Assembly: GCF_029323795.1 (NCBI RefSeq)
Contig: NZ_CP119758.1
Coordinates: 4,092,001 to 4,156,000, forward strand
Source of the DNA: Zobellia alginiliquefaciens
Lineage (GTDB): Bacteria > Bacteroidota > Bacteroidia > Flavobacteriales > Flavobacteriaceae
DNA length: 64,000 nucleotides
Reading direction: 5' to 3'
Part shown: in pieces, positions 3,196-55,358 of the stretch
Numbering within the stretch: the stretch's first letter is position 1
Layout: every line of letters begins with the position of its first letter
Translations under genes and position numbers: made by a program
Notes under the pieces: model-generated
What the model saw: only the letters and a program-made list of their open reading frames with translations
Databases searched by the model: none
What the model was told of the DNA's origin: nothing

Positions 3196-6100
3196 TTATA
3201 GGTTTAAACTAAAGTGAAAGGTACTTCCTTTATTAATTTTTGATTCTACCCAGATTTTTCCGTTATGTAGCTCTACTATTTTTTTACAATGCGCTAGGCC
3301 TATACCGGTTCCTTCATAATCTTCTTGGTTGTGTAACCTTTTGAATACCTCAAAAATACGATCTTGATTTTTTTTGTCAATTCCAATTCCGTTGTCCTTT
3401 ACGTAAATATGATGTCCTTTTTCAGAAGGTAGGGAACCAATTTCAATAATTGGATCACTCGTGCTATCCACAAATTTTATGGAGTTGCCAATTAGGTTAA
3501 GGAAAAGTGAGTGTAGTTCAATTTCGTGACCTGTTATTGTGGGTAGGTCTTTGATTATGATATTTGTATGGGTAGATTCAATACGGATGCGTAAATCTTT
3601 TTCTACATTTTTAACTATTGCATTAAGGTCTACAATCCCTTTTTCAGTATCGCTTCCAATCTTTGAATAGGCCAAAATTACTTTTACCAATTCTCCCATT
3701 CTTGCGGAAGCTTCCTCTATAAATTCTAAATAGGTGGCGGCTTTACTGTCAAACAACTTAATGTACTCCTCTTTAAATAGAGCTACAAAGTCCCTAATGG
3801 TACGCAATGGTTCCTGTAAGTCATGACTGGCTACATAGGCAAAGCGTTCCAATTCTTTGTTACTTTGAGAAAGTTGTCTAAGGTTGGTGATGTTTATATG
3901 ACTGCCTACCATTCGTATAGGTTCATCATTTTCTCCCCATTCTATAACTTGGCCTTTACACCAAACCCAGACAATACCTCCGTTTTTATGAAAATAGCGG
4001 ACCTCATTATCATAAGGTACTTTTCCCTTACTGGCTACATGAGCATCAAAAGTGGCTAGTACGCCAGGTAAATCTTCCGGATGAATTATTCTTTGCCAAG
4101 ATTCGGGCGTATTTTCCATTTCATGATCTTCGTACCCGAACATCCGCTTGAAGGTAGGACTTAGGTACTCTGTGTTTTCTTGTATATTCCAATCCCAAAA
4201 TCCGGCTAGGGTTATTTCCAGAACTTGTTCAAACACCATGTTTTTATCTAGGAGTTCTTTTTCAAGTTTAGACATTTTATTAAGCATAGAAACATCGGTT
4301 GTGGTACCTAGCATTCGTTTAGGTTTTCCTTCCGGGGTCCATTCAGCCAGCTTTCCTCTTACTAATAGGGTTACATAATGTCCTAATTTGTGTTTGTATC
4401 TCGTTTCAACGGTATAAGGGATTTTACCGTTACTCGACAAATGCTTTTCCATGGCAGCCTCTTGGGCTATTAAATCCTCTGGATGAGTTAACTTATCCCA
4501 AAATTCTGAAGTTTCCTCAATTTCATCCTCATCGTAACCTAGGACATGGCGGATTGAACGACTTACATAGTAAGAACTTTTCTCTATGTCATAATCCCAA
4601 AAACTGTCCGTTGTTTGCTCAAAGGCAAGTAACTGGTTCTTTAATTTCTGTTCTGCGGATTTAAGCTCGTTTATATCCACATAACTTAGGGTTGCTCCTT
4701 CAATTTTACCTGTTCCATCGCGGAAAGGAACAATTTTTTGTAAGAACCAACGTCCCTTGGCATCTTTTACCTCATTTTGTTGTGAAGTACCACTGCTGAT
4801 TACCTCTTTAATATCAGAAATAAATGTTTTGTAATTATTCTTATGAAAGGTACTGGCAAAGTGCTCTAGAGGACGGTTAATATCACTGGACATTAAATTA
4901 AAATGCTTGGCGACACTGGGTGTAAATTTCCGTATTTTTAGGTTGTTGTCTAAAAATATAGTGCCAATATCCGTGCTTTCGAAAAGATTGTCCAAATCTA
5001 AATTAAGAGTGGCAAGTTCTTCTAGTTTTTCCTGAAGTTCCGTATTGACCGTATTCAACTCTTCGTTTACACTCTGTAGTGCTTCGTTTGAGGCCAAAAG
5101 TTCTTCGTTGGTAGCTTGCAGTTCTTTATTGCTGGTCTCTACCTCTTCAATCATATTCTTTAGACTCTCCCTGGTTTCTTTTAATTCAGTTTGTAGTTCG
5201 TTTTCCCTTATATTTTTAAAAGAATCATCCTCCTCACTGCTGGATGTTTGTATTGCCTGAAGGTCCGCTGGTTTTATAATCACTAAATAATTGGAGGGGT
5301 TATTATTCAATGGGTTCCAAAAAGCAGCTACATGCATATTTGCAATGGTCGTCTTCTTTCCTGTAGAGAAATTTAAATTTTCATGTTTTAATTTTTGGGT
5401 CGTACCTCCAACTTTTTTTAGGGAGTAGCTTAAAACAGTGGCTACACTTTCAGGAACCATTTTTAACAAGTTCATGCTGAACCCTTTGTTGGGAAGACTT
5501 ATATAATTAGTAAGGTCTCCAAAAGCATCAACAATTTTAAAATTACTATCTATAACAATGGCAGCAAGATCTAGGTTGTCACTTAATGCCTCTACTATAT
5601 GTTGTCTGGTACTTCTTTCTTGACTTATATTTCTTAGTCCGAATGGGTTTTTTTGGCTATTGCCTAAACCGTACTTTTGAAGACCAAGAATTTTAGCAGG
5701 TCTAATATTGCAGTAAATTTTTTGTTTTCTGTACAGTTCGTTAAACGCGTTTTTTTGCTGACCAAGAGATTCACTACTGCCTAAAACCAATATACCGTTT
5801 ATGTTAAGCGAATAATGCAGAACATCTAGGGCTCTATTTTGTGCTACCGGTTGTAGGTATATAAGCATGTTTCTGCACATGGATAGATCCATTTTATTAA
5901 AGGGCGGGTCTTTAAGAACGTTATGCTTACTGAATATCACCATGCGTCTTATGTTTTCATTGACTTGGTAATAATCTCCTTTTTTGGTAAAATTCAAAAG
6001 CAGCCTTTTTTCGGAAATATTGGCGATGGTACTTTCATTATACATCCCTTTTGAAGCATCGTTCAGGTGATTTTTTTCAATATCCGTGGCAAAAATTTTA

Positions 6101-7152
6101 ACTAGGTTCTTCTTATTGAGCTTTGTGAGTATCTCGTTAATAATTATGGCTAATGAATAGGCTTCTTCACCACTGCTTACCCCAACGCACCAGCACTTTA
6201 TGGTATCGTCTTTTTTCTTACTGGATATTATTTTGGGGATAACCTCATTGGTCAAGACCTCCCATACAAGATCATCCCTAAAGAAGCTGGTAACGCCTAC
6301 TAGAAATTCCCTAACTAAAACATGGGCTTCTTCAGGTCTTTCAAATAGATAGTCTTTGTATTCCTGGAGCGTGTCCAAACGATTGATGCCTATTCTCCTG
6401 GCAATCATCCGAACCAAGGTAGGCCTTTTGTAATATTCAAAATCTAATTTAGTCTGACTGTTTAGAAAGTTTAGGATTTTAACAAGTGTTTCTTCGTCAC
6501 TAAGAATATTTTCTTCCAAAGATCCATAAACAGCGGGGTGATGAATAAACCTTTTAAGTTCATCTCCCATTTGTTCCGTGGGAAGAACGTAATCTACAAG
6601 ATTGGTGTTGATAGCGTTTTGAGGCATACTATCAAATTCTGCTTGGTCTGGGCTTTGCACCATAACCATACCGCCATATTCTTTAATATCTCGGGTGCCA
6701 GAGGTGCCATCACTTCCTGTACCGCTAAGGATGATAGCAACGGCCTTATTTGTCATTTCCTTAGCCAGTGATTTAAAAAATAAATCAATAGGTAAATTTA
6801 TGGTTCGGGTGGTGGGTTTATCCTCTAAAAGTAAATACCCGTCCTTTATAAAAATGTTTTTTTTGGGAGTCAGAAGGTATACTGTACTAGGCTTTATTTT
6901 GGTCTTTTCCTTGACTTCAACTATGGGCATGTCCGTATTCTTAGACAATAGTTCGCTCATAAGACTTTTGTAGTCCGGGCTTAAATGTTGGACCACAACA
7001 AAACTATGTGCAAATTTAAGAGGAAGATTGTCAAAAAAAGACTTTAAAGCTTCTAAGCCGCCCACACTAAAACCGATTCCAATAATTGAAAATTTGATTT
7101 CAACCTTGATATTTTGCGTTGGTTTTTTATTAATTGAGCGGATTTCCTCCAT
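3196..7152 (-). CDS. CheB-CheR-PAS hybrid sensor histidine kinase
   Basis: 1318 residues with an unusual full set of domains. The CheB methylesterase domain (about 20-205) retains the catalytic residues S29 (FSVGG), H56 (VVQHL) and D148 (GTGSDG). The CheR methyltransferase domain (about 220-490) has REFLVGVTSFFRD and a SAM-site WCVGVSSGEEAYSLA. A coiled coil of repeated NEEL/NxEL units lies at about 655-725. At least three PAS domains follow (about 725-1085). The HisKA domain has H1110 in SHDLQEP, and the HATPase_c domain has N1223 and the DNGIGI and GTGIGLAH boxes. Such CheB/R-PAS-kinase proteins are known in Bacteroidota and others and typically act outside chemotaxis. No chemoreceptor or flagellar gene is nearby. 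The downstream CheY-like gene at 2791 is its likely target. Confidence 0.92.
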   Translation of the reverse strand: MEEIRSINKKPTQNIKVEIKFSIIGIGFSVGGLEALKSFFDNLPLKFAHSFVVVQHLSPDYKSLMSELLSKNTDMPIVEVKEKTKIKPSTVYLLTPKKNIFIKDGYLLLEDKPTTRTINLPIDLFFKSLAKEMTNKAVAIILSGTGSDGTSGTRDIKEYGGMVMVQSPDQAEFDSMPQNAINTNLVDYVLPTEQMGDELKRFIHHPAVYGSLEENILSDEETLVKILNFLNSQTKLDFEYYKRPTLVRMIARRIGINRLDTLQEYKDYLFERPEEAHVLVREFLVGVTSFFRDDLVWEVLTNEVIPKIISSKKKDDTIKCWCVGVSSGEEAYSLAIIINEILTKLNKKNLVKIFATDIEKNHLNDASKGMYNESTIANISEKRLLLNFTKKGDYYQVNENIRRMVIFSKHNVLKDPPFNKMDLSMCRNMLIYLQPVAQNRALDVLHYSLNINGILVLGSSESLGQQKNAFNELYRKQKIYCNIRPAKILGLQKYGLGNSQKNPFGLRNISQERSTRQHIVEALSDNLDLAAIVIDSNFKIVDAFGDLTNYISLPNKGFSMNLLKMVPESVATVLSYSLKKVGGTTQKLKHENLNFSTGKKTTIANMHVAAFWNPLNNNPSNYLVIIKPADLQAIQTSSSEEDDSFKNIRENELQTELKETRESLKNMIEEVETSNKELQATNEELLASNEALQSVNEELNTVNTELQEKLEELATLNLDLDNLFESTDIGTIFLDNNLKIRKFTPSVAKHFNLMSSDINRPLEHFASTFHKNNYKTFISDIKEVISSGTSQQNEVKDAKGRWFLQKIVPFRDGTGKIEGATLSYVDINELKSAEQKLKNQLLAFEQTTDSFWDYDIEKSSYYVSRSIRHVLGYDEDEIEETSEFWDKLTHPEDLIAQEAAMEKHLSSNGKIPYTVETRYKHKLGHYVTLLVRGKLAEWTPEGKPKRMLGTTTDVSMLNKMSKLEKELLDKNMVFEQVLEITLAGFWDWNIQENTEYLSPTFKRMFGYEDHEMENTPESWQRIIHPEDLPGVLATFDAHVASKGKVPYDNEVRYFHKNGGIVWVWCKGQVIEWGENDEPIRMVGSHINITNLRQLSQSNKELERFAYVASHDLQEPLRTIRDFVALFKEEYIKLFDSKAATYLEFIEEASARMGELVKVILAYSKIGSDTEKGIVDLNAIVKNVEKDLRIRIESTHTNIIIKDLPTITGHEIELHSLFLNLIGNSIKFVDSTSDPIIEIGSLPSEKGHHIYVKDNGIGIDKKNQDRIFEVFKRLHNQEDYEGTGIGLAHCKKIVELHNGKIWVESKINKGSTFHFSLNL

Positions 7153-10652: not shown

Positions 10653-13600
10653 ATGAGACGGACATTACATCTATTCACTTTTGCCTTTGCTTTTTTTATG
10701 GCTATGTCCATTACGGCCCAAGATACTTTTGACGATAAAAGGCATAGAAAAGGTACGACCGCCAAATCAGGTAGACCAAACAAGTTTGCGCCACTAAAAA
10801 TGGCTATAGGTAAAAAGAGGTCTACCGCTACAGGGCGTACTAATTTTCAAATACCATCTATTTTTAATATGTCCACTAATAATGGTAAATACAAGCATCG
10901 TATAACTGCGAAATCCGAAAATGGCAATCCTTTATTTATAGAAAGTGACGCTAATAAGGAAGTAGCCTTATTAGCGTCAAAACAATCTTCAGAAGATGTA
11001 GTAAAGGATTACTTGATAGATGTTAAGGACCTTATCCAGATTAAAAATCCAGAAGATGAGTTTGTTGAAATTTCTAACAAGAGTGACAACTTAGGACAGA
11101 AGCATATTAAAATGCAGCAGGTATTTAAAGGGATTAAAGTGTATGGTAGTGAGGTAATCTTACATTTTGATAAAAGTAATAAGATAAGTGCTTTAAACGG
11201 TAGAAATAAACCAACACCCCATATTGAAAGTACAGAGCCAAAACTAACGCCACAAGATGCCTTAAAACAGGCAGAAAGAGATTTAGGGGTTACGCTTTCC
11301 AATAAATCTGAAAATGGCAGTATCCTTACGGAACCTGCAAATTTTGAGGAAGAACTTTTGATTTACCCCATTGAGGGGAACAATTTTCTAGCGTGGCATC
11401 TAACGGTATACCCAGATATAAAAGACAGATGGGAATATTTTATTGATGCTCAAACAGGGCGTATACTTGATAAACGTTACCACACCTGCACCCTATATCA
11501 TAACTATGGAGAAGAAAAGGAGGGTCATAAGCACTCTGCTATCTTGGCTCCACCAACCACAGGTTCTGGAATAGATTTAAATGGAGTCAACCGGCAAATA
11601 AAAACGCATGAAGTAGATGGTATTCATTATATGCTTAACACTTCAGAGTCTATGTTTAATGCTGCTCAATCACAGCTGCCGGACAATCCTGTTGGCGCCA
11701 TTCTTACGCTAGACCTCAGGAATAAAGCTCCTAACGAAGGTGTAAAAGTATATCATGTTACCTCTACAGGAACCAATTGGAACAATCCTACTGCAGTTTC
11801 TGCACATTACAATGCGGAGGTGTCCTATAACTATTTTAAAAACACCTTCAATCGAAATTCAATAAATGGGCAAGGCGGTACAATAATTTCTTTTATAAAT
11901 GTAGCGGATGAAAACGATGAGGATTATGATAACGCATTTTGGAATGGGAAAGCCATATTTTATGGAAATGGAAAGAACGCATTTGCCCCGTTTGCAGGTG
12001 CTTTAGATGTATCCGGTCATGAAATGTCCCATGGTGTTATTGAGGTTACGGCAAATTTAGAATATAAGAATCAGTCCGGCGCAATCAATGAATCCTTTGC
12101 AGATATTTTTGGTACAATGATCGATCGGGAAGATTGGTTGTTGGGAGAGGATATTGTGAACAGAAATTATTTTGCTTCAGGGGCAATGCGTAATCTTCAG
12201 GACCCGAACAATGGAGTCAATCCTGGAGAGAACGGTTGGCAGCCAAAAGATATGACGGAGTATTATTCCGGTTCGGAAGATAACGGTGGGGTTCATAGAA
12301 ATAGTGGAATCTTAAATAGAGCCTATTACTTAATGGCTACCCAAATTGGCAAGAACAAAGCAGAGCAAATCTATTACCGTGCCTTAGAAACGTATTTGAC
12401 GGTATCTTCTCAATTTATTGATCTTAGGTTAGCGGTTATAAAATCTGCAACAGATTTGCATGGAGACAATTCACAAGAAGTGCTAGCGGCAAAGACAGCT
12501 TTTGATACGGTAGGTATTACGGATGGAGAAGCTTCGGATACGGACAATGATATTCCCACAGTAGCTGGAGAGGAGTTTATTTTAAGTATAGACATAAGGG
12601 ATATGGACCCTTATACTTTATATGCTTCGGATACGAAGGCAACTGAATATTTTCCTTTGGCACAAACAGGCGTTTATAAAAAACCTAGCGTTGCGGATGA
12701 CGGTAGTTTTGCTTTGTTCGTTACTGATGAAAATAAAGTAAATTCAGTTATTCTAGATTTGAATTCACCAGTAGAAGATGTAGTGTCGGATGATGCAGTT
12801 TGGGGGGGTGTAGCACTTTCGAAAGATGGGACCAAACTGGCATCGATATTTAATGATGAGACCAATATCATCTATATTTCGGATTTGGTAAGTGGTGAAT
12901 TTAAAGAGTTTAAATTGTATAACCCAACCTCTGCAGATGGTATAACCACGGGAGAGGTACTATACCCGGATGCACTTGAGTGGGATTATTCCGGACAATA
13001 TCTCATATATGATGCGCTAAACAGACTGGATAATGCAGAAGGCGAAGCAATAGAGTATTGGGACGTAGGGGCTTTGCGAGTTTGGGACAATGCATCCAAC
13101 ACATTTGGAGATGGTGATATCCAAAAAATATTCTCCAATCTACCGGAAGGTGTCAATATAGGCAATCCTTCTTTTTCTAAAACCTCGGGTAACATTTTAG
13201 CGTTTGATTATTTTGATAACCTAAAAGGCGAATATCAAATAATTACCGCCAATATAGAGACGGGTGAGGTAAATGTAGTTTATGAAAATAATAAGCTAGG
13301 CTTTCCCAACTATTCCAAAACTGACGACAAGATTATTTTCGATACAAATAATGGAAGCGATAAAGATATCATGTCTATTGATATGGCATCTGATAAAATG
13401 ACGTCAACCGGTAATTTGGTAGAATTGATTCCAAATGGTAAATGGGGAATTTGGTACACGGTTGGATCTAGAAGTACACTCAGTAGCGAAAAGGAAATCA
13501 CCGATTTTAGATTTAATGTTACTTCACCACCGGCAGTTGGGGTTATATCTGGTAGTACTATTTCAGTAGAACTTCCGGGCAACATCAACCCTGAAAACTT

Positions 13601-14591
13601 AATAGCCACGTTCACTACTTCTAATAATGCTAGGGTCTCTGTGTTGGGGGTAAACCAAATTAGTGGTGTAAATGTCAATGATTTCACTAACTCGGTAGTT
13701 TATACGGTTACGGCAGAAGACGGATCTACAAAAGATTTTATCATAAGCCTAGGAGAAAGTACACCTGTTCACCCTAATGATAGTGATGATGATGGGGTAG
13801 TAAATGCAGATGACTTATGCCCAAACACCCCTTATGGTGCAACGGTAGACCTTACAGGTTGTGAAATTTTCTCTCTGCCAAGTTCTAATTTCACGGTGTC
13901 CGCCAAAGGCGAATCTTGTGTAGGAAGCAATAATGGGAGTATCAATATTAATGCAAACACTGGCTATGACTATATAGCAACCCTGGCCGGAAACGGAGTG
14001 AGTAAAACAAATAATTTCACAAGCTCTGTTTCTTTTTTCGATTTGGAAAGCGGTTCATATACCGTCTGTATTACGGTGCAAGGAGAACCAGGCTATAAGA
14101 GCTGTTATGATGTAAAGGTTTCTGAGCCAGAAGCGCTTGCGGTAACGTCTAAAGTGAACCTGAGTGCCAAATCGGTGACACTTAATTTAGCCGGAGCCGA
14201 AGAATATACGATTTCACTTAACGAAGAAACGATAGTTACTGCGGAATCTGAGATAACTCTACCCGTCTATGAGGCAACAGCAAAACTTTCGGTTACTACA
14301 GATAAGAATTGCCAAGGGGTTCATGAGGAAATCCTGGATTTTGAAGAGCAAGTAATTATCTACCCCAACCCTGTAAAAGGTGGTGAGATTTCCGTTGCAC
14401 TGGGTAAAACGTCTGAAGAACCCGTTCCCATTCAATTAAACACGTTTGATGGTAAAATGGTTTTACAAAAAGTAATAAAACCCAATGCAAACACTTTAAA
14501 AATCGATGCAAACAGTCTTACAACAGGGGTTTATGTGTTGACAGTTCAAATTAATGGAGGTACAAGAACATTTAAAATCATAAAACAATGA
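10653..14591 (+). CDS. Secreted M4-family (thermolysin-like) metalloprotease with propeller region and T9SS tail
   Basis: 1312 residues. The signal peptide ends at SITAQ (about 23). The FTP/PepSY propeptide spans about 70-280 and the M4 catalytic domain about 320-640. The latter has the zinc site H456-E-M-S-H460, the catalytic E457 and third ligand E480 (AINESFADIFG), plus the downstream HRNSGILNRAYYL segment. WD40/TolB-like propeller repeats follow (about 645-950). Next are a DUF5018-like Ig-type segment, a thrombospondin type 3 calcium motif (DSDDDGVVNADDLCP), a cysteine-containing beta domain and a C-terminal type A sorting domain (VIIYPNPV ... TFKIIKQ). The export route through SecYEG then T9SS follows from family knowledge. 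The stop overlaps the next gene start by 4 nt. Confidence 0.93.
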   Translation: MRRTLHLFTFAFAFFMAMSITAQDTFDDKRHRKGTTAKSGRPNKFAPLKMAIGKKRSTATGRTNFQIPSIFNMSTNNGKYKHRITAKSENGNPLFIESDANKEVALLASKQSSEDVVKDYLIDVKDLIQIKNPEDEFVEISNKSDNLGQKHIKMQQVFKGIKVYGSEVILHFDKSNKISALNGRNKPTPHIESTEPKLTPQDALKQAERDLGVTLSNKSENGSILTEPANFEEELLIYPIEGNNFLAWHLTVYPDIKDRWEYFIDAQTGRILDKRYHTCTLYHNYGEEKEGHKHSAILAPPTTGSGIDLNGVNRQIKTHEVDGIHYMLNTSESMFNAAQSQLPDNPVGAILTLDLRNKAPNEGVKVYHVTSTGTNWNNPTAVSAHYNAEVSYNYFKNTFNRNSINGQGGTIISFINVADENDEDYDNAFWNGKAIFYGNGKNAFAPFAGALDVSGHEMSHGVIEVTANLEYKNQSGAINESFADIFGTMIDREDWLLGEDIVNRNYFASGAMRNLQDPNNGVNPGENGWQPKDMTEYYSGSEDNGGVHRNSGILNRAYYLMATQIGKNKAEQIYYRALETYLTVSSQFIDLRLAVIKSATDLHGDNSQEVLAAKTAFDTVGITDGEASDTDNDIPTVAGEEFILSIDIRDMDPYTLYASDTKATEYFPLAQTGVYKKPSVADDGSFALFVTDENKVNSVILDLNSPVEDVVSDDAVWGGVALSKDGTKLASIFNDETNIIYISDLVSGEFKEFKLYNPTSADGITTGEVLYPDALEWDYSGQYLIYDALNRLDNAEGEAIEYWDVGALRVWDNASNTFGDGDIQKIFSNLPEGVNIGNPSFSKTSGNILAFDYFDNLKGEYQIITANIETGEVNVVYENNKLGFPNYSKTDDKIIFDTNNGSDKDIMSIDMASDKMTSTGNLVELIPNGKWGIWYTVGSRSTLSSEKEITDFRFNVTSPPAVGVISGSTISVELPGNINPENLIATFTTSNNARVSVLGVNQISGVNVNDFTNSVVYTVTAEDGSTKDFIISLGESTPVHPNDSDDDGVVNADDLCPNTPYGATVDLTGCEIFSLPSSNFTVSAKGESCVGSNNGSININANTGYDYIATLAGNGVSKTNNFTSSVSFFDLESGSYTVCITVQGEPGYKSCYDVKVSEPEALAVTSKVNLSAKSVTLNLAGAEEYTISLNEETIVTAESEITLPVYEATAKLSVTTDKNCQGVHEEILDFEEQVIIYPNPVKGGEISVALGKTSEEPVPIQLNTFDGKMVLQKVIKPNANTLKIDANSLTTGVYVLTVQINGGTRTFKIIKQ

Positions 14592-47615: not shown

Positions 47616-50600
47616 ATGACAGACAAACACAAATACATGCGTTCACTAGCTTTAACATTATCATTTCTTTTCTATTGTACAACTCTGCTTTCACAAGTAT
47701 CAGAGCCGCAAGATTCTAATTCCGATAAGGAAGTATCCCATTCGTTCTATATAACCTCAAATGTTGGAAATGTCTCTTTTGAAGAAGCAAAAGTAATATT
47801 GGACGAAATCAATTCGGCTTCTAAAAATGATACGGATGCTACATTGCTGTTATTGGGCAATGTTATAAACAAGGAAGGATTTCCTTCAAAAGAAGAAAAA
47901 CAAGATAAGGCAAAGAAATACTTAAAGCCTTTAATGCAATTATGGGATGAATTTAACGGCAATGTAATTTTAACACCAGGAAAGAACGAATGGCTAACGG
48001 GAGCTCCACAAAGTATAGATGATTTAGAATCGTTTTTACAGGATAATAGTAAGGCTAAATTCTGGCCTAATGATGGTTGTCCTGTTGAGCGGGAAACTAT
48101 TAATGACGATGTAGTTTTGGAGATGGTAGATTCTCAGTGGTTTTTAGAAGATTGGGACGAGCATCCGTACATCAATGAAAAGTGTGAGCATAAAACAAGA
48201 GACCAGTTTTTGGCGGAGTTTAAAGATGATTTAAAGGATAGTCAAGGTAAAACGGTTATTGTTGCGGTCTACCAGCCGGTTATGAGCAATAGTAAGATTT
48301 CTGTAATAGATAAGATGGGCGGGTTTCAACCGGAATCATATCAAAATAAACAGAATAGACTTTTCCGCGGTAGAATGGAGACTATTGCCAGTCAGTTTGA
48401 GGATGTGATATTCGTATCGGGAAAAGACCGTAACCTACAATATTTAGAAGATGATGGTATTCCGCAGATTATTAGTGGAGCCGTGGGTAAAACAGAAAAA
48501 GCAAGAGCGCCCAAAGATGAACATTTTGAATCTGGAAACAATGGATATGCAAAATTAAAGGTGTTTAAAGATGGTAGCTCAGAAGTAGATTTTATAGAAA
48601 TAAAGAGTGGTAATTCAAGAGTTACTTACACCCAGATAATTAAAAGAGACCGACTTTCTATAGACGATATTTCGTATCCCCAAAAAACATACGGGCCCAC
48701 AGAAAAAGCCTCAATATACACCAAGGAAGAAACAGATAAAAGCGGATTTTATAAATGGGTTTGGGGAGACCATTATAGAAACCTTTATAGCAAAGAAATA
48801 GAGGCTCCGGTATTAGAATTAGATGAGTTGCCGGGTAATGTACGGCCAATTTCTGAGGGTGGTGGTACACAATCTAGATCACTAAGGTTAATAGATGATA
48901 ATGAACATGAATATACTTTAAGGGCATTGCGTAAAAGTGCTTTACGCTTTCTGCAGACCAATGCTATAGATAATCACTATGTGGAAGATTACCTTAGAAA
49001 CACCGTGGCCGAGCGTTATATGATGGATTTTTATACCACTGCACATCCTTACGCACAATTTGCTATGAATGAACTGTCCGAAACCTTGGAGGTGCTCCAT
49101 GCAAATCCAAATATATATTATGTACCCAAGCAAGAAGCTTTAGGTATTTATAATGAAGATTATGGGAACGCCCTTTTTATGTTGGAGGAACATGTGGGAG
49201 ATGAAAACAAAAGCTTTGAAACATTTGGAAAACCAGATGACATTTTAAGTACAACGGATTTACGTTTAGAGTTGATGGAGTCTAAGGATTCCTACGTAGA
49301 TGAACCAAGCTTTATCCGTGCACGATTGTTTGATATGCTAGTTGGTAATTGGGACCGTCATCAAGACCAATGGCGATGGGCGCAGTTTAAAACCGAAGAT
49401 GGTAAAAAAAGGTATGAAGCCATACCGAGGGACTGGGACCAGGCTTTTCCCAAATACGACGGACCTATTATTGCCATGCTAAAATATTCTTTCCCCTTGC
49501 TTCGTAAAATGGAAAGTTTTGATGCGGATATAAAAAATGTTAAATGGTTTAATCTCTCTGGCTATCCGTTGGATAAGGCTTTTATAAAAACAGCAAATTG
49601 GGATGATTGGAAAAAGCAAGTAGATTTTATTCAGGAAAACTTATCAGATGAAGAAATAGACATTGCTTTTAATTCTCTACCAGAAGCGGCGCAGGACAGT
49701 AGTATCAATGAAATTAAAAAGAATCTTCGGTCAAGACGTGATGGTTTACAGGCTATCGCCCAATCGTATTATGATTACTTAAATAATTTTGAAGTCGTAA
49801 TTGGAACGGAAAAGGATGATGATTTCTTGATAACTAGAGAACCAAATGGGGCAACCAACATTTCCATTTCAAAAGATAGTATAGTTTTTAATAATAGCTA
49901 TAATTCTAAACAAACCAAGGAAATTTGGGTGTATGGGCTAGACGGGAACGATACCTTTACTGTTACGGGAGAGGGAAATAAGCTTATAGACCTTAAAATA
50001 ATAGGAGGCAAGAAAAACGACACCTATGATTTTAAATCCACTAAAAAGGTAAAGTTATATGATTATAAAAGCAAGAATAATACCATAGTAAACCCAAAGT
50101 CCAAAAAATGGCTCACAGATTCCTATGATGTCAATACTTATGACTATCAAAAAAGGAAGTATCATGAAAATATCATATTTCCAAGTTTAGGATATGATGG
50201 GGATACAGGTTTTAGGATTGGGCTAAAAGACCGTTTTACTACATACGGTTTAGCTAACAATCCGTTTAAATCACAGCACACCATAGGAGCGGAGTATTTT
50301 TTTGCTACTAACGGTTTCGCAATAGATTATAATGCCGAATTTGGGCACGTTTTTCACAATTGGAACCTTGGTTTTGATGTTCGATACGCTAGCCCCAATT
50401 TTACCATGAACTATTTTGGAGCAGGCAATGATTCTCAATATGACAATGACTTAGACTTTGATTACAACCGCGTACGTATTAGACAATGGAAATTCTCTCC
50501 TTATCTGGTACATAAAAGTGCGGGAAGTAAATACTACTTAAGAGCTGCATTGGAATCTTTTGATGTATCTAATGACGATGACCGTTTTGTAGGACAATCA

Positions 50601-51200
50601 TTTACTGCCGATGATGACGTTTATGAACAACAATTATACACTACAGCAGAAGTAGGTTACAATTACCACAATCAAAATGACCCCGCATTTCCTAATCGGG
50701 CTATGGATGCAGAGGTGGTAGCGGGTTATAAATCGAACATAAATGGCTACGATAATAACTTTGGGTATGTAAAACCGTCGTTGTCATTAACCTACCCATT
50801 GCATCCAAGCGGTATTGCCGTAATTGCAACTAAAATAGCGGGAGAAGCGATTATAGGAGATAACTATGAGTTTTATAATGGTGCCGTTTTGGGCGGAAAC
50901 CAAAGTTTGCGAGGGTACAGAAATGAAAGGTTTAATGGGAAATCCGCCTTTTATCAAAGTACAGATTTAAGAGTAGGAATTACTAGATTTAAAACTAATT
51001 TCATACCTATTCAAATGGGAGTAAGTGCCGGTTTTGATTATGGCCGCGTTTGGACGGATAATGATAATTCTTCCCAATGGCACAATGACTACGGAGGCTC
51101 TATATGGATATCCGGTTTTAGTGCATTAACAGGAAATCTAGGTTTCTATCACGGAGGAGATGGAAATAGATTCATATTCAGTGTGGGGTTTAATTTTTAG
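47616..51200 (+). CDS. Outer-membrane protein: degenerate metallophosphoesterase + kinase-like fold + beta-barrel
   Basis: 1194 residues; an alternative ATG at 47637 also precedes the signal peptide (ends near LLSQ). Residues 40-345 keep the skeleton of calcineurin-like phosphoesterases, but the metal ligands are replaced: SNVG at 48-51 for GDAG, GNVIN (81-85) for GDNIY, PGKNEW (121-126) for PGNHEW, VYQP for GHHP and SGKDRNLQY (268-276) for SGHEHNLQY. Residues about 400-720 look like an atypical kinase: GGGTQSRSLRL (415-425), K440, GNWDRH (577-582) and PRDWDQAF (604-611). From about 860 on is a BamA/surface-antigen-like barrel ending FIFSVGFNF. The domain call for the kinase part is inference from motif similarity. 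Confidence 0.8.
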   Translation: MTDKHKYMRSLALTLSFLFYCTTLLSQVSEPQDSNSDKEVSHSFYITSNVGNVSFEEAKVILDEINSASKNDTDATLLLLGNVINKEGFPSKEEKQDKAKKYLKPLMQLWDEFNGNVILTPGKNEWLTGAPQSIDDLESFLQDNSKAKFWPNDGCPVERETINDDVVLEMVDSQWFLEDWDEHPYINEKCEHKTRDQFLAEFKDDLKDSQGKTVIVAVYQPVMSNSKISVIDKMGGFQPESYQNKQNRLFRGRMETIASQFEDVIFVSGKDRNLQYLEDDGIPQIISGAVGKTEKARAPKDEHFESGNNGYAKLKVFKDGSSEVDFIEIKSGNSRVTYTQIIKRDRLSIDDISYPQKTYGPTEKASIYTKEETDKSGFYKWVWGDHYRNLYSKEIEAPVLELDELPGNVRPISEGGGTQSRSLRLIDDNEHEYTLRALRKSALRFLQTNAIDNHYVEDYLRNTVAERYMMDFYTTAHPYAQFAMNELSETLEVLHANPNIYYVPKQEALGIYNEDYGNALFMLEEHVGDENKSFETFGKPDDILSTTDLRLELMESKDSYVDEPSFIRARLFDMLVGNWDRHQDQWRWAQFKTEDGKKRYEAIPRDWDQAFPKYDGPIIAMLKYSFPLLRKMESFDADIKNVKWFNLSGYPLDKAFIKTANWDDWKKQVDFIQENLSDEEIDIAFNSLPEAAQDSSINEIKKNLRSRRDGLQAIAQSYYDYLNNFEVVIGTEKDDDFLITREPNGATNISISKDSIVFNNSYNSKQTKEIWVYGLDGNDTFTVTGEGNKLIDLKIIGGKKNDTYDFKSTKKVKLYDYKSKNNTIVNPKSKKWLTDSYDVNTYDYQKRKYHENIIFPSLGYDGDTGFRIGLKDRFTTYGLANNPFKSQHTIGAEYFFATNGFAIDYNAEFGHVFHNWNLGFDVRYASPNFTMNYFGAGNDSQYDNDLDFDYNRVRIRQWKFSPYLVHKSAGSKYYLRAALESFDVSNDDDRFVGQSFTADDDVYEQQLYTTAEVGYNYHNQNDPAFPNRAMDAEVVAGYKSNINGYDNNFGYVKPSLSLTYPLHPSGIAVIATKIAGEAIIGDNYEFYNGAVLGGNQSLRGYRNERFNGKSAFYQSTDLRVGITRFKTNFIPIQMGVSAGFDYGRVWTDNDNSSQWHNDYGGSIWISGFSALTGNLGFYHGGDGNRFIFSVGFNF

Positions 51201-53284: not shown

Positions 53285-54787
53285 CTATTTTGAATATCGA
53301 TTTGGAGCCAATATATTATTGGGGTCAAGTTTGTTTTTCAATTTATAGGCTATACTATCTTCCCAATTTATTTTACTCACATATTCACTTTGAAAAACAG
53401 TTGGTATTCTATATGGGTAGATACCAAGGTCTAAACAAAAATCCAATAATGCTCTGTACAAATTATGGGCGTTGTCAATTCCGTTAGTGGTTGTCTTGTC
53501 AAACAATATGGGAATGGTTGAAGCGATTATATTTTCATTCTGAATGGTCAAGGTAACCATAGGCTCAAGGTTAAATTCTTTGAATATGTTGTAAATACCA
53601 GTCATATAATCATTTAAAACCTTCACTTTATACGGTATAACAGGGGCAAACCATATAATACCTATATTATCCTTTAACGGATTGTGGTTTTTGTTTGCAT
53701 CAGGGATGCTAGACAAGGAATAAATTAAGTTGAGGGGATATTTAGAAGGCTTTCCTTTTAAAATGGAGAACCCTTCATTTATTTTTTTTAGGTCTTCCGC
53801 ATCAATAAAAAGTTTACCTAAGGAGTTGTTTTTTAATATGATGTTGTTAGAAGAAATAAAACGTTTTTTGGTTCCAATGCCTTTTAACGCTTTTTTCATT
53901 TCTTTCCTAATGGTAGATTGGATTCCTTTAGATCCGTATATAGCACCCATAACGGTCCACTCTTCCAATTTATGTATTTTCTTTAATTCTCCTATTTTGT
54001 CTTCTGAACAGTAGCCGTTCTCTTCTGCAAGGTAGTTACTTTTCATGGCTAACATCCTTCGCGTGTTCATTAGGTTGATGCCTGAAATAAAGTTTTTATA
54101 GGTCTCTTTAATTTCTTTTAGCTTTAATAGGCAAGCGTGGCTAGCATCTTCTGAAACCGATAGCGTAAACATCATAATATTATCAGGAGTACGCTCTAGT
54201 TTTATGGTCATTTCGTACACCACCCCAAAATTCGATTGAAAAAAAATATAATCGAAATTAGGACCAACTCCCCATTTGTGGTGTTTATCCAGATTTGACA
54301 GACCTAACTGAGAAAAGGTAGATTCATAGTTGCTACCATCTGGTAAAATGGCTTTTAAAGAACGAACGGACTCTACATGGTCATGAACTGGAGTTATCCC
54401 GAACCCCCTTTCTAGTGCATTACCCATAATATTGGCTTCCGGACCTGCTCCGGTAACCGGTACCATGAACTTGTAGGAGTTAGCGGTTAGAAATTCATGA
54501 AGTTTTCCTTGTGTCAATCCTGGTCCAAAAGTCAATAAACCCTCATCTGCATCAAACTTGATAACGTTGGGCATATTTGACAGATTCATTACGATTGGAG
54601 TGTTTTCATTAGGCGGAAAACTACTTCCATAGCCCCAGTTATTCCCGGATGAGACAGGATAAAAACTGTAAGAATTCAAATTACAATATTCGATTACCTC
54701 TTTTATTTCGGATACGTTTACTGGATAAACAATCTTCTTGCTTGAAGACAGATTGTCTAGACATCTCTTAATCGTGACTTTATTCAT
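53285..54787 (-). CDS. Vanillyl-alcohol-oxidase/p-cresol-methylhydroxylase-type FAD oxidoreductase
   Basis: 500 residues. The FAD-binding PCMH domain (about 15-200) has NNWGYGSS with Y53, ALERGFGITPVHDHVESV and WGVGPNFDYIFFQSNFGVV, all aligning by eye with VAO/PCMH flavoproteins. The cap and C-terminal part has IIWFAPVIPYKVKV, PYR at 458-460 and LDPNNILAPNRY. Y53, Y459 and R460 occupy the positions of the phenolate-binding Tyr-Tyr-Arg of VAO (108/503/504), so a para-substituted phenol is the likely substrate. The start overlaps the stop of the FeeM-like gene by 8 nt. Covalent FAD attachment cannot be judged. Confidence 0.85.
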   Translation of the reverse strand: MNKVTIKRCLDNLSSSKKIVYPVNVSEIKEVIEYCNLNSYSFYPVSSGNNWGYGSSFPPNENTPIVMNLSNMPNVIKFDADEGLLTFGPGLTQGKLHEFLTANSYKFMVPVTGAGPEANIMGNALERGFGITPVHDHVESVRSLKAILPDGSNYESTFSQLGLSNLDKHHKWGVGPNFDYIFFQSNFGVVYEMTIKLERTPDNIMMFTLSVSEDASHACLLKLKEIKETYKNFISGINLMNTRRMLAMKSNYLAEENGYCSEDKIGELKKIHKLEEWTVMGAIYGSKGIQSTIRKEMKKALKGIGTKKRFISSNNIILKNNSLGKLFIDAEDLKKINEGFSILKGKPSKYPLNLIYSLSSIPDANKNHNPLKDNIGIIWFAPVIPYKVKVLNDYMTGIYNIFKEFNLEPMVTLTIQNENIIASTIPILFDKTTTNGIDNAHNLYRALLDFCLDLGIYPYRIPTVFQSEYVSKINWEDSIAYKLKNKLDPNNILAPNRYSK

Positions 54788-55358
54788 TATAATACTTATA
54801 GACAGTTTTTCTAAATAACTTAGGGAAGTTTTCTGAATCGATTTGTGCTAAATTTAAATACATTAATTGAGCGGGAGCTTCAGAAAGTTTCTCATATCTT
54901 TTTTCGCTCCCCAGTTTTTTGCAATTAAAAAATACTTCATAGAAACTACATGATTTTGGGTTTACGGAAAGGATTACATCCGTAACACCTTTTTTCATAC
55001 CCTCCGCAGAGAGTAGTGAAAGTATATTCAATAGGTCGTGAAATCTGGGGATTTTTCGGCAATCGGCCAACAGGCAAACTTCGGCAACATATTTTTTAGT
55101 ATTCAGTAATTCTAATATTTCCGTGGCATAGATATCCGAACTGGGTAGCTCTTCTTTTTTAGAACTGAATATCGCCGAACAAGTTATGATCGGTTCGATC
55201 TCTTTCTTGCCGTAGGCTCTAATAGCACTAGCTTTTTTTAATCTATTTATATGTGTATAGTCACCATTGTCTATTAGTTTTTTTTGATGGTATGCTTTGT
55301 GAATAAGATTATCGGTAGATTTATATTCATCTTCCGTTAAAACTATTTTAAATTCCAT
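54780..55358 (-). CDS. FeeM-like N-acyl amino acid synthase (GNAT fold)
   Basis: 192 residues. It shows the pattern of FeeM/acyl-homoserine-lactone-synthase-like acyltransferases: RAYGKKEIEPIITCSAIF (a strand-rich substrate part), VAEVCLLADCRKIPRFHDLLNILSLL (the EVCRLAV..-like central strand and helix), GVTDVILSVNPKSCSFYEVFFNCKKLG and a last strand PAQLMYLNL. FeeM uses acyl-ACP to acylate tyrosine or other amino acids (family knowledge). It is the first gene of a two-gene operon with the VAO-type flavoenzyme. No ACP gene is nearby. Confidence 0.65.
   Translation of the reverse strand: MEFKIVLTEDEYKSTDNLIHKAYHQKKLIDNGDYTHINRLKKASAIRAYGKKEIEPIITCSAIFSSKKEELPSSDIYATEILELLNTKKYVAEVCLLADCRKIPRFHDLLNILSLLSAEGMKKGVTDVILSVNPKSCSFYEVFFNCKKLGSEKRYEKLSEAPAQLMYLNLAQIDSENFPKLFRKTVYKYYNE

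Follow-up and report, generated by a model that had tools for sequence, protein, structure and literature searches.

The gene and its product

Here, we describe a gene in a stretch of 64,000 nucleotides, hereafter called the window, from Zobellia alginiliquefaciens (RefSeq assembly GCF_029323795.1, contig NZ_CP119758.1, positions 4,092,001 to 4,156,000 of the forward strand), whose genome is a single contig of 5.07 Mb. The gene is a single open reading frame (ORF) with an ATG start at 47616-51200 (+), exactly where an earlier note, made from the letters alone, had placed it, and its product of 1194 amino acids (aa), a candidate phosphotransferase, is composed of three domains. The earlier note had described a dead phosphoesterase, an atypical kinase fold and a BamA-like barrel, and had considered such a fusion unusual. 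The motifs it cited (LLLGNVI, PGKNEW, SGKDRNLQY, GGGTQSRSLRL at residues 415-425, K440, GNWDRH at 577-582 and PRDWDQAF at 604-611) were all located, and the predicted folds agree with its description for all three domains. The fusion is thus present; however, since the phosphatase is either intact or lost clade-wide in most of the sampled fused relatives, the fusion characterises the family at large, and what is special is the dead metal site. The same genome carries two paralogues, L002 (46% identity) and L003 (41%). The features of the gene are as follows.

47616..51200, + strand: entire gene, 1194 aa, with signal peptide, pseudo purple acid phosphatase, kinase-fold domain, small beta region and Omp85 barrel
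47616..47693, + strand: putative N-terminal signal peptide, residues ~1-26, recognized by eye (lipobox regular expression negative)
47733..48635, + strand: pseudo purple acid phosphatase domain, residues 40-340
47760..48431, + strand: former metal/active-site stretch, NNNKNYKR replacing DDYNHHHH at positions 49, 82, 85, 123, 124, 219, 270 and 272
48648..49790, + strand: kinase-fold domain, residues 345-725, from the predicted model, fold matches and a CtkA profile match
48858..48890, + strand: glycine-rich loop GGGTQSRSLRL
48921..48935, + strand: candidate donor-contacting basic residues R436 to K440, conserved in 104/105 and 105/105 rows
49344..49379, + strand: catalytic-loop-like motif GNWDRHQDQWRW, residues 577-588, with candidate base D580, aligning with CtkA GNFDRHNGNWGF
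49347..49349 and 49434..49436: replaced residues 578 (N) and 607 (W)
49425..49448, + strand: metal-loop-like motif PRDWDQAF with D606 and D608, each in 105/105 rows
49791..50165, + strand: small beta-rich linker preceding the barrel, residues ~726-850, from model strands
50166..51197, + strand: Omp85 beta-barrel, residues ~851-1194, from profile and Foldseek matches

A purple acid phosphatase domain without its metal site

The N-terminal domain shows a purple acid phosphatase fold in the predicted model, so that the phosphoesterase framework seen in the earlier note stands and its type can be refined to the tartrate-resistant purple acid phosphatases. At the eight positions of the metal ligand set, which includes a Tyr, the intact relatives carry D D Y N H H H H, whereas the window protein carries N N N K N Y K R, and 0 of 8 ligands are kept. 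The Pfam profile PF00149 has no match in the window protein itself, whereas it does match the paralogue L003. Compared with tartrate-resistant purple acid phosphatase (ACP5; 2bq8, 1war, 1ute), the window protein differs in these eight positions and in being fused to a kinase fold and a barrel, while the likeness to GAP50 (3tgh), a Plasmodium inner-membrane-complex protein, is an analogy only. In the portion of a review available to us (PMC10202324), a Riemerella metallophosphoesterase is listed as an effector of the type IX secretion system (T9SS).

In an alignment of 71 rows, all eight ligands are present in 21 rows and 0-3 in the other 50, with no intermediates; the rows are not independent, since certain named loci and G-handle loci represent one genome (e.g., L006/L034), and one of the 50, L072, has a broken frame and a gap at all eight positions. 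When each sequence of a 129-row set was scored from its own N-terminus, 60 rows had 8/8 (among them L004, a cut copy of L003), 47 had 0-3 and L131 had five, while 21 were without the phosphatase part; 8/8 is thus found in 60 of 108 phosphatase-bearing rows. The metal ligands are therefore intact in many relatives and absent in the window's clade, as expected for the pseudoenzyme proposed in the earlier note.

The dead phosphatase is nevertheless under purifying selection. Compared with the near relatives L005 and L034, its nonsynonymous substitutions per site (dN) are 0.036 and 0.067 and its synonymous substitutions per site (dS) 0.50 and 1.70, which gives dN/dS of ~0.04-0.07 for these two pairs, with comparable values in the kinase part and the barrel; in the remaining pairs, synonymous sites have reached saturation. 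The L002-type clade shows faster change in its phosphatase part than in the rest of the protein (72-73% vs. 81-85% identity), although that part is still constrained. Because of this purifying selection, the dead domain probably has a non-catalytic role. A relict, that is, a duplicated gene in decay, might be read from the loss of every phosphatase ligand and from the poorly conserved gene neighbours in the window's clade. However, the long ORF is intact in all 13 named window-type loci and the selection data contradict decay, which makes a relict hardly credible.

A kinase-domain tree built by a quick method unites the window type with the L002 type in a single group of 30 rows, which has a value of 93 in the Shimodaira-Hasegawa-like approximate likelihood ratio test (not starred), and separate phosphatase losses are placed in L016/L022 and in L078, the position of the latter being uncertain owing to its long branch. 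Three changes between the intact and lost states are required by this tree, also when two short rows are excluded, with L131 (5/8) treated as intact and L072 (broken frame) omitted. In L016 and in L022, a dead-phosphatase gene adjoins an intact one, and their loss of the metal site is an independent one. Of the three family paralogues in the window genome, one is intact and two are degenerate.

A predicted kinase fold in the middle domain

The model of residues 345-745 has a predicted local distance difference test score (pLDDT) of 78 and a predicted template modelling score (pTM) of 0.79, and its Foldseek neighbours are CotH, PI4K-II, CtkA, HipA and FAM20C, in agreement with the atypical kinase fold that had been proposed. 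In addition, a 37-row cross-architecture profile matches CtkA weakly (E 0.0065). The domain is therefore predicted to be a kinase-like fold with a catalytic-loop Asp and a metal-loop Asp. All 71 rows are identical at K440, D580, R581, H582, D584, D606 and D608; in a thinned set of 105 rows, from which two short rows were excluded, K440, D606 and D608 are found in 105, R436 and D471 in 104 and D580 in 103. Thus the region 400-720 does not lack a kinase fold in the model, and its motif residues do not vary freely among homologues, either of which would have spoken against the earlier note. Two otherwise constant positions distinguish the window's own type: D578N and R607W occur jointly in all of its 16 sequences and nowhere else among the 71 rows.

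The known kinases nearest in fold differ from the window protein in several respects. CotH (PF08757; 5jd9) has neither barrel nor phosphatase, and PF08757 has no match among 40 family members at E 1. CtkA and HipA (3akj, 3akk, 3dnu) have no outer-membrane tether, and the HipA Pfam profiles have no match in the window protein or among the same 40 members. The type II PI4Ks are eukaryotic lipid kinases with 9-12% identity to the window domain and no sequence-level match, and FAM20C lies below CotH and PI4K-II in the fold search and has no sequence match either. No qualifying match was given by the Pfam profiles of FAM20C and of the PI3/4-kinases, no PDB match by a profile built from 40 rows of the middle region, and no kinase by the window protein alone against Pfam, NCBIfam and PDB sequences. 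Scattered single-member Pfam matches (EnY2 in 8/40, AbiGi in 3/40, and others) are inconsistent between members and were put down to chance.

Two other explanations bear on this domain. Both soluble domains could be binding modules for nucleotide or phosphate sensing or for scaffolding, a double pseudoenzyme that steers an Omp85 assembly or export barrel. Such an arrangement is possible, but we consider it somewhat improbable, because the invariance of K440, D606 and D608 and the near-invariance of D580 are more than binding alone usually needs; the loss of D580 only in L078 and L112_936, which are outside the window's clade, indicates that likely pseudokinases exist but are rare. Alternatively, the substrate could be an outer-membrane lipid, a glycan or an inositol compound instead of a protein. 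The protein-acting CotH, CtkA, HipA and FAM20C are also among the fold matches, although a shared fold shows no substrate, and a small-molecule or lipid kinase seems unlikely to us.

An Omp85 barrel and the side of the membrane

The C-terminus is an Omp85 barrel of the BamA/TamA type. The NCBIfam profile Omp85_fam (NF047779) matches with E 1.5e-17 (64 bits, far under its curated cut-off of 200), the ShlB profile with E 2.6e-4 (slightly under its cut-off), and Foldseek finds BamA and TamA structures at ~1e-4 on a low-confidence portion of the model; the profile and the structure matches together support the BamA-like barrel of the earlier note. The relatives L078 and L128 exceed the Pfam Omp85 cut-off, while no POTRA match was found in the Pfam scans. 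In the preceding linker, the block pLDDT is 57-86 up to about residue 835 and falls beyond.

In BamA and TamA, the portion N-terminal to the barrel faces the periplasm. In this family, the kinase domain is also found behind an N-terminal membrane helix or behind a lipobox (L112 and L113, by eye or by regular expression), and the forms with a membrane helix suit a periplasmic domain. By analogy, the soluble domains are more likely to lie in the periplasm than at the surface, and the surface kinase suggested in the earlier note is not supported. Export of the soluble domains through or around the barrel, so that the kinase acts outside the cell, would have a precedent in FhaC and other Omp85/TpsB relatives, which move proteins outward; given the points above, we regard it as very improbable. 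The lipobox expression matches 19/58 intact, 4/49 lost, 2/9 kinase-only and 2/11 kinase-barrel rows; it misses LLASC of L003 and LAGC of L113, was counted on row labels that have since been revised, and was not used as evidence of location.

An Omp85 architecture of this kind has been on record since the description of the 'Metallo' subfamily (Heinz and Lithgow, 2014; PMC4104836). In the portion of that paper available to us, a PF00149 domain, labelled a metalloprotease, precedes the Omp85 barrel, and a position outside the cell is raised for it, with the periplasm being favoured. The window protein likewise has, by homology and fold, a PF00149-type domain before an Omp85 barrel, and it fits this subfamily by architecture rather than by comparison with the 2014 sequences. 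It differs in its lost metal site and in its middle domain, as neither a kinase-fold domain nor the word 'kinase' occurs in that portion. Similarly, the available portions of the accounts of BamP and TamL (PMC12611786, PMC12045153) contain neither 'kinase' nor 'phosphatase'.

Spread and architectures of the family

The kinase-fold domain is widespread in Bacteroidota: a profile of the middle domain is positive in 148 of the 392 sampled genomes of the phylum. It occurs as phosphatase-kinase-barrel (~1250 aa), as kinase-barrel (~870 aa, e.g., L118 with an open frame of 891 aa), as a barrel-less form of kinase and beta linker (lipoprotein-like, ~550 aa; twice in L112 and in L113), and as the kinase domain alone, anchored to the membrane at its N-terminus, with ~425 aa and a KCFxC end (L073-L077), for which no Pfam family scored above cut-off in the two members scanned, L073 and L076. 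Members are also present on five plasmid records, where the annotation reads hypothetical protein for four matches and is lacking for the fifth. Our searches of an open-access library gave no description of the domain, and the available portions of two glycoproteome studies (PMC10897501, PMC8729774) hold nothing attributable to the family. Therefore, we report as new a family of atypical kinases, so far unrecognised, within a known Omp85 architecture; in one of its branches the phosphatase is a pseudoenzyme.

Gene neighbourhoods and a possible polyphosphate link

A polyphosphate kinase gene (PPK, PF02503) lies within 10 kb of a family gene in 13 of 55 genomes, while ~0.5 would be expected. The 55 genomes are a chosen subset of the 148 positives, mostly of the kinase-barrel and high-scoring phosphatase types, and related genomes were counted separately, the 13 falling in six group-coded families; consequently, the Poisson figure for this proximity, which presumes independence, cannot be read as a probability. 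Two larger distances, in G084 (13 kb) and G317 (40 kb), were not counted. The order HD-PycTM, SixA, PPK, kinase-barrel, SdiA-regulated recurs in L134, L135, L142, L143, L146 and L147, with extra genes in L143, two kinase-barrel genes in L146 and a CotH gene in three loci. PAP2 and porin genes are found in part of these clusters. In L144 (5389-15623; G434), one cluster contains phosphatase (PF00149, E 5.2e-6) and kinase-barrel as two separate genes, accompanied by PPK, HD-PycTM, an SdiA-like gene and another gene that matches GAF weakly, as would be expected of cooperating parts that are fused elsewhere. The PPK neighbourhood of the relatives suggests a polyphosphate connection, and the recurrent cluster may be an undescribed phosphate/polyphosphate system of the envelope.

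An HD-PycTM gene is within the flank of 9 of the 12 long-flanked loci of the intact type (L121, L123-L133) and of 5/7 kinase-barrel loci (L134-L140), directly adjacent in several loci and with intervening genes in others; the match is partial in L131 and L133. Of the 39 named loci, in each of which the phosphatase is degenerate or broken, three show a partial match; PPK is found near one of the 39 (L070; ~5 kb of flank searched). At L121:4934-6133, this common neighbour of the intact-type loci is an HD + PycTM protein (Pycsar effector), whose surroundings are unlike a defence island. Among the L002-type loci, a Crp-like regulator is present in 20/26 and a Rieske/glutamate-synthase-like protein in 19/26 (families named from L054); at L054:4369-10896 and other such loci, the former lies upstream and the latter downstream of the degenerate paralogue. 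A conserved sulfatase association was rejected: the window gene and L002 are near a sulfatase gene, yet the loci are only eight and include several overlapping copies. Elsewhere in the window there are a 1318-aa protein that fuses CheB methylesterase and CheR methyltransferase with PAS domains and a histidine kinase (3196-7152, -), an M4 thermolysin-type protease with a T9SS sorting tail (10653-14591, +), and a gene for an FAD-binding protein adjoining one for a FeeM-like N-acyl amino acid synthase (53285-55358, -).

A candidate phosphotransferase of the envelope

Taken together, we suggest, with a probability of roughly 0.55, that the window protein is an outer-membrane-tethered, likely periplasm-facing phosphotransferase built on an Omp85 barrel, from an atypical-kinase family that has no name so far; its kinase domain would then be active. 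The barrel would serve as an anchor, with both soluble domains hanging on the periplasmic side. A phosphoryl donor might be bound by the glycine-rich loop, by R436/K440 and by a metal on D606/D608, and phosphate could be transferred, with D580 as base, onto an envelope protein, lipid or polymer. In the intact members, the attached purple acid phosphatase would strip the phosphate again, so that a writer and an eraser reside in one polypeptide. In the window's clade, where K270 and R272 occupy former metal-binding histidine positions, the dead eraser may be retained as a domain that is free of metal and serves in binding or regulation. The window protein would then be a kinase-only or phosphate-sensing version of the writer-eraser device.

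Several observations weigh against this interpretation. The periplasm is not known to contain ATP, and a kinase there would need an unusual donor. Only two Foldseek matches, both to CtkA, have E <0.001, with TM scores of 0.38-0.50 and a root-mean-square deviation of 8-10, and the overall superposition on CtkA is loose. No Pfam kinase family was matched by the window protein or by 40 family members, and hhalign against three CotH proteins, a weak test with three sequences, was not significant. D580 is absent in the two members named above, and the paired D578N/R607W change could mean that activity is altered or lost in the window's own type. The barrel model is of low confidence (block pLDDT 27-64). 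Finally, no neighbour family is common to more than 6 of the 13 named loci of the window's clade and, in the window genome, no PPK gene lies near any family member, the PPK genes being elsewhere; the polyphosphate link may therefore not hold for this clade.

A wider picture can be offered tentatively: a phylum-wide, undescribed family of Bacteroidota envelope kinases tethered to the outer membrane, whose full form combines the kinase and a purple acid phosphatase on an Omp85 barrel, with the window protein in a branch whose eraser has turned into a regulatory domain free of metal. Because ATP is scarce in the envelope, a polyphosphate-linked donor would be possible there. We consider this picture possible but not probable.

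Significance

Secreted eukaryotic kinases provide ample documentation of phosphorylation outside the cytoplasm, whereas bacterial envelopes provide hardly any. The kinase-fold family built on Omp85, given its spread over the sampled genomes, would be a concrete candidate for such envelope phosphorylation, beside a phosphatase in the same chain. The kinase fold would also be the missing middle domain of the Omp85 architecture known since 2014, while the intact and degenerate paralogues in the window genome and in the genomes of L016 and L022 offer a natural comparison for the role of the phosphatase half.

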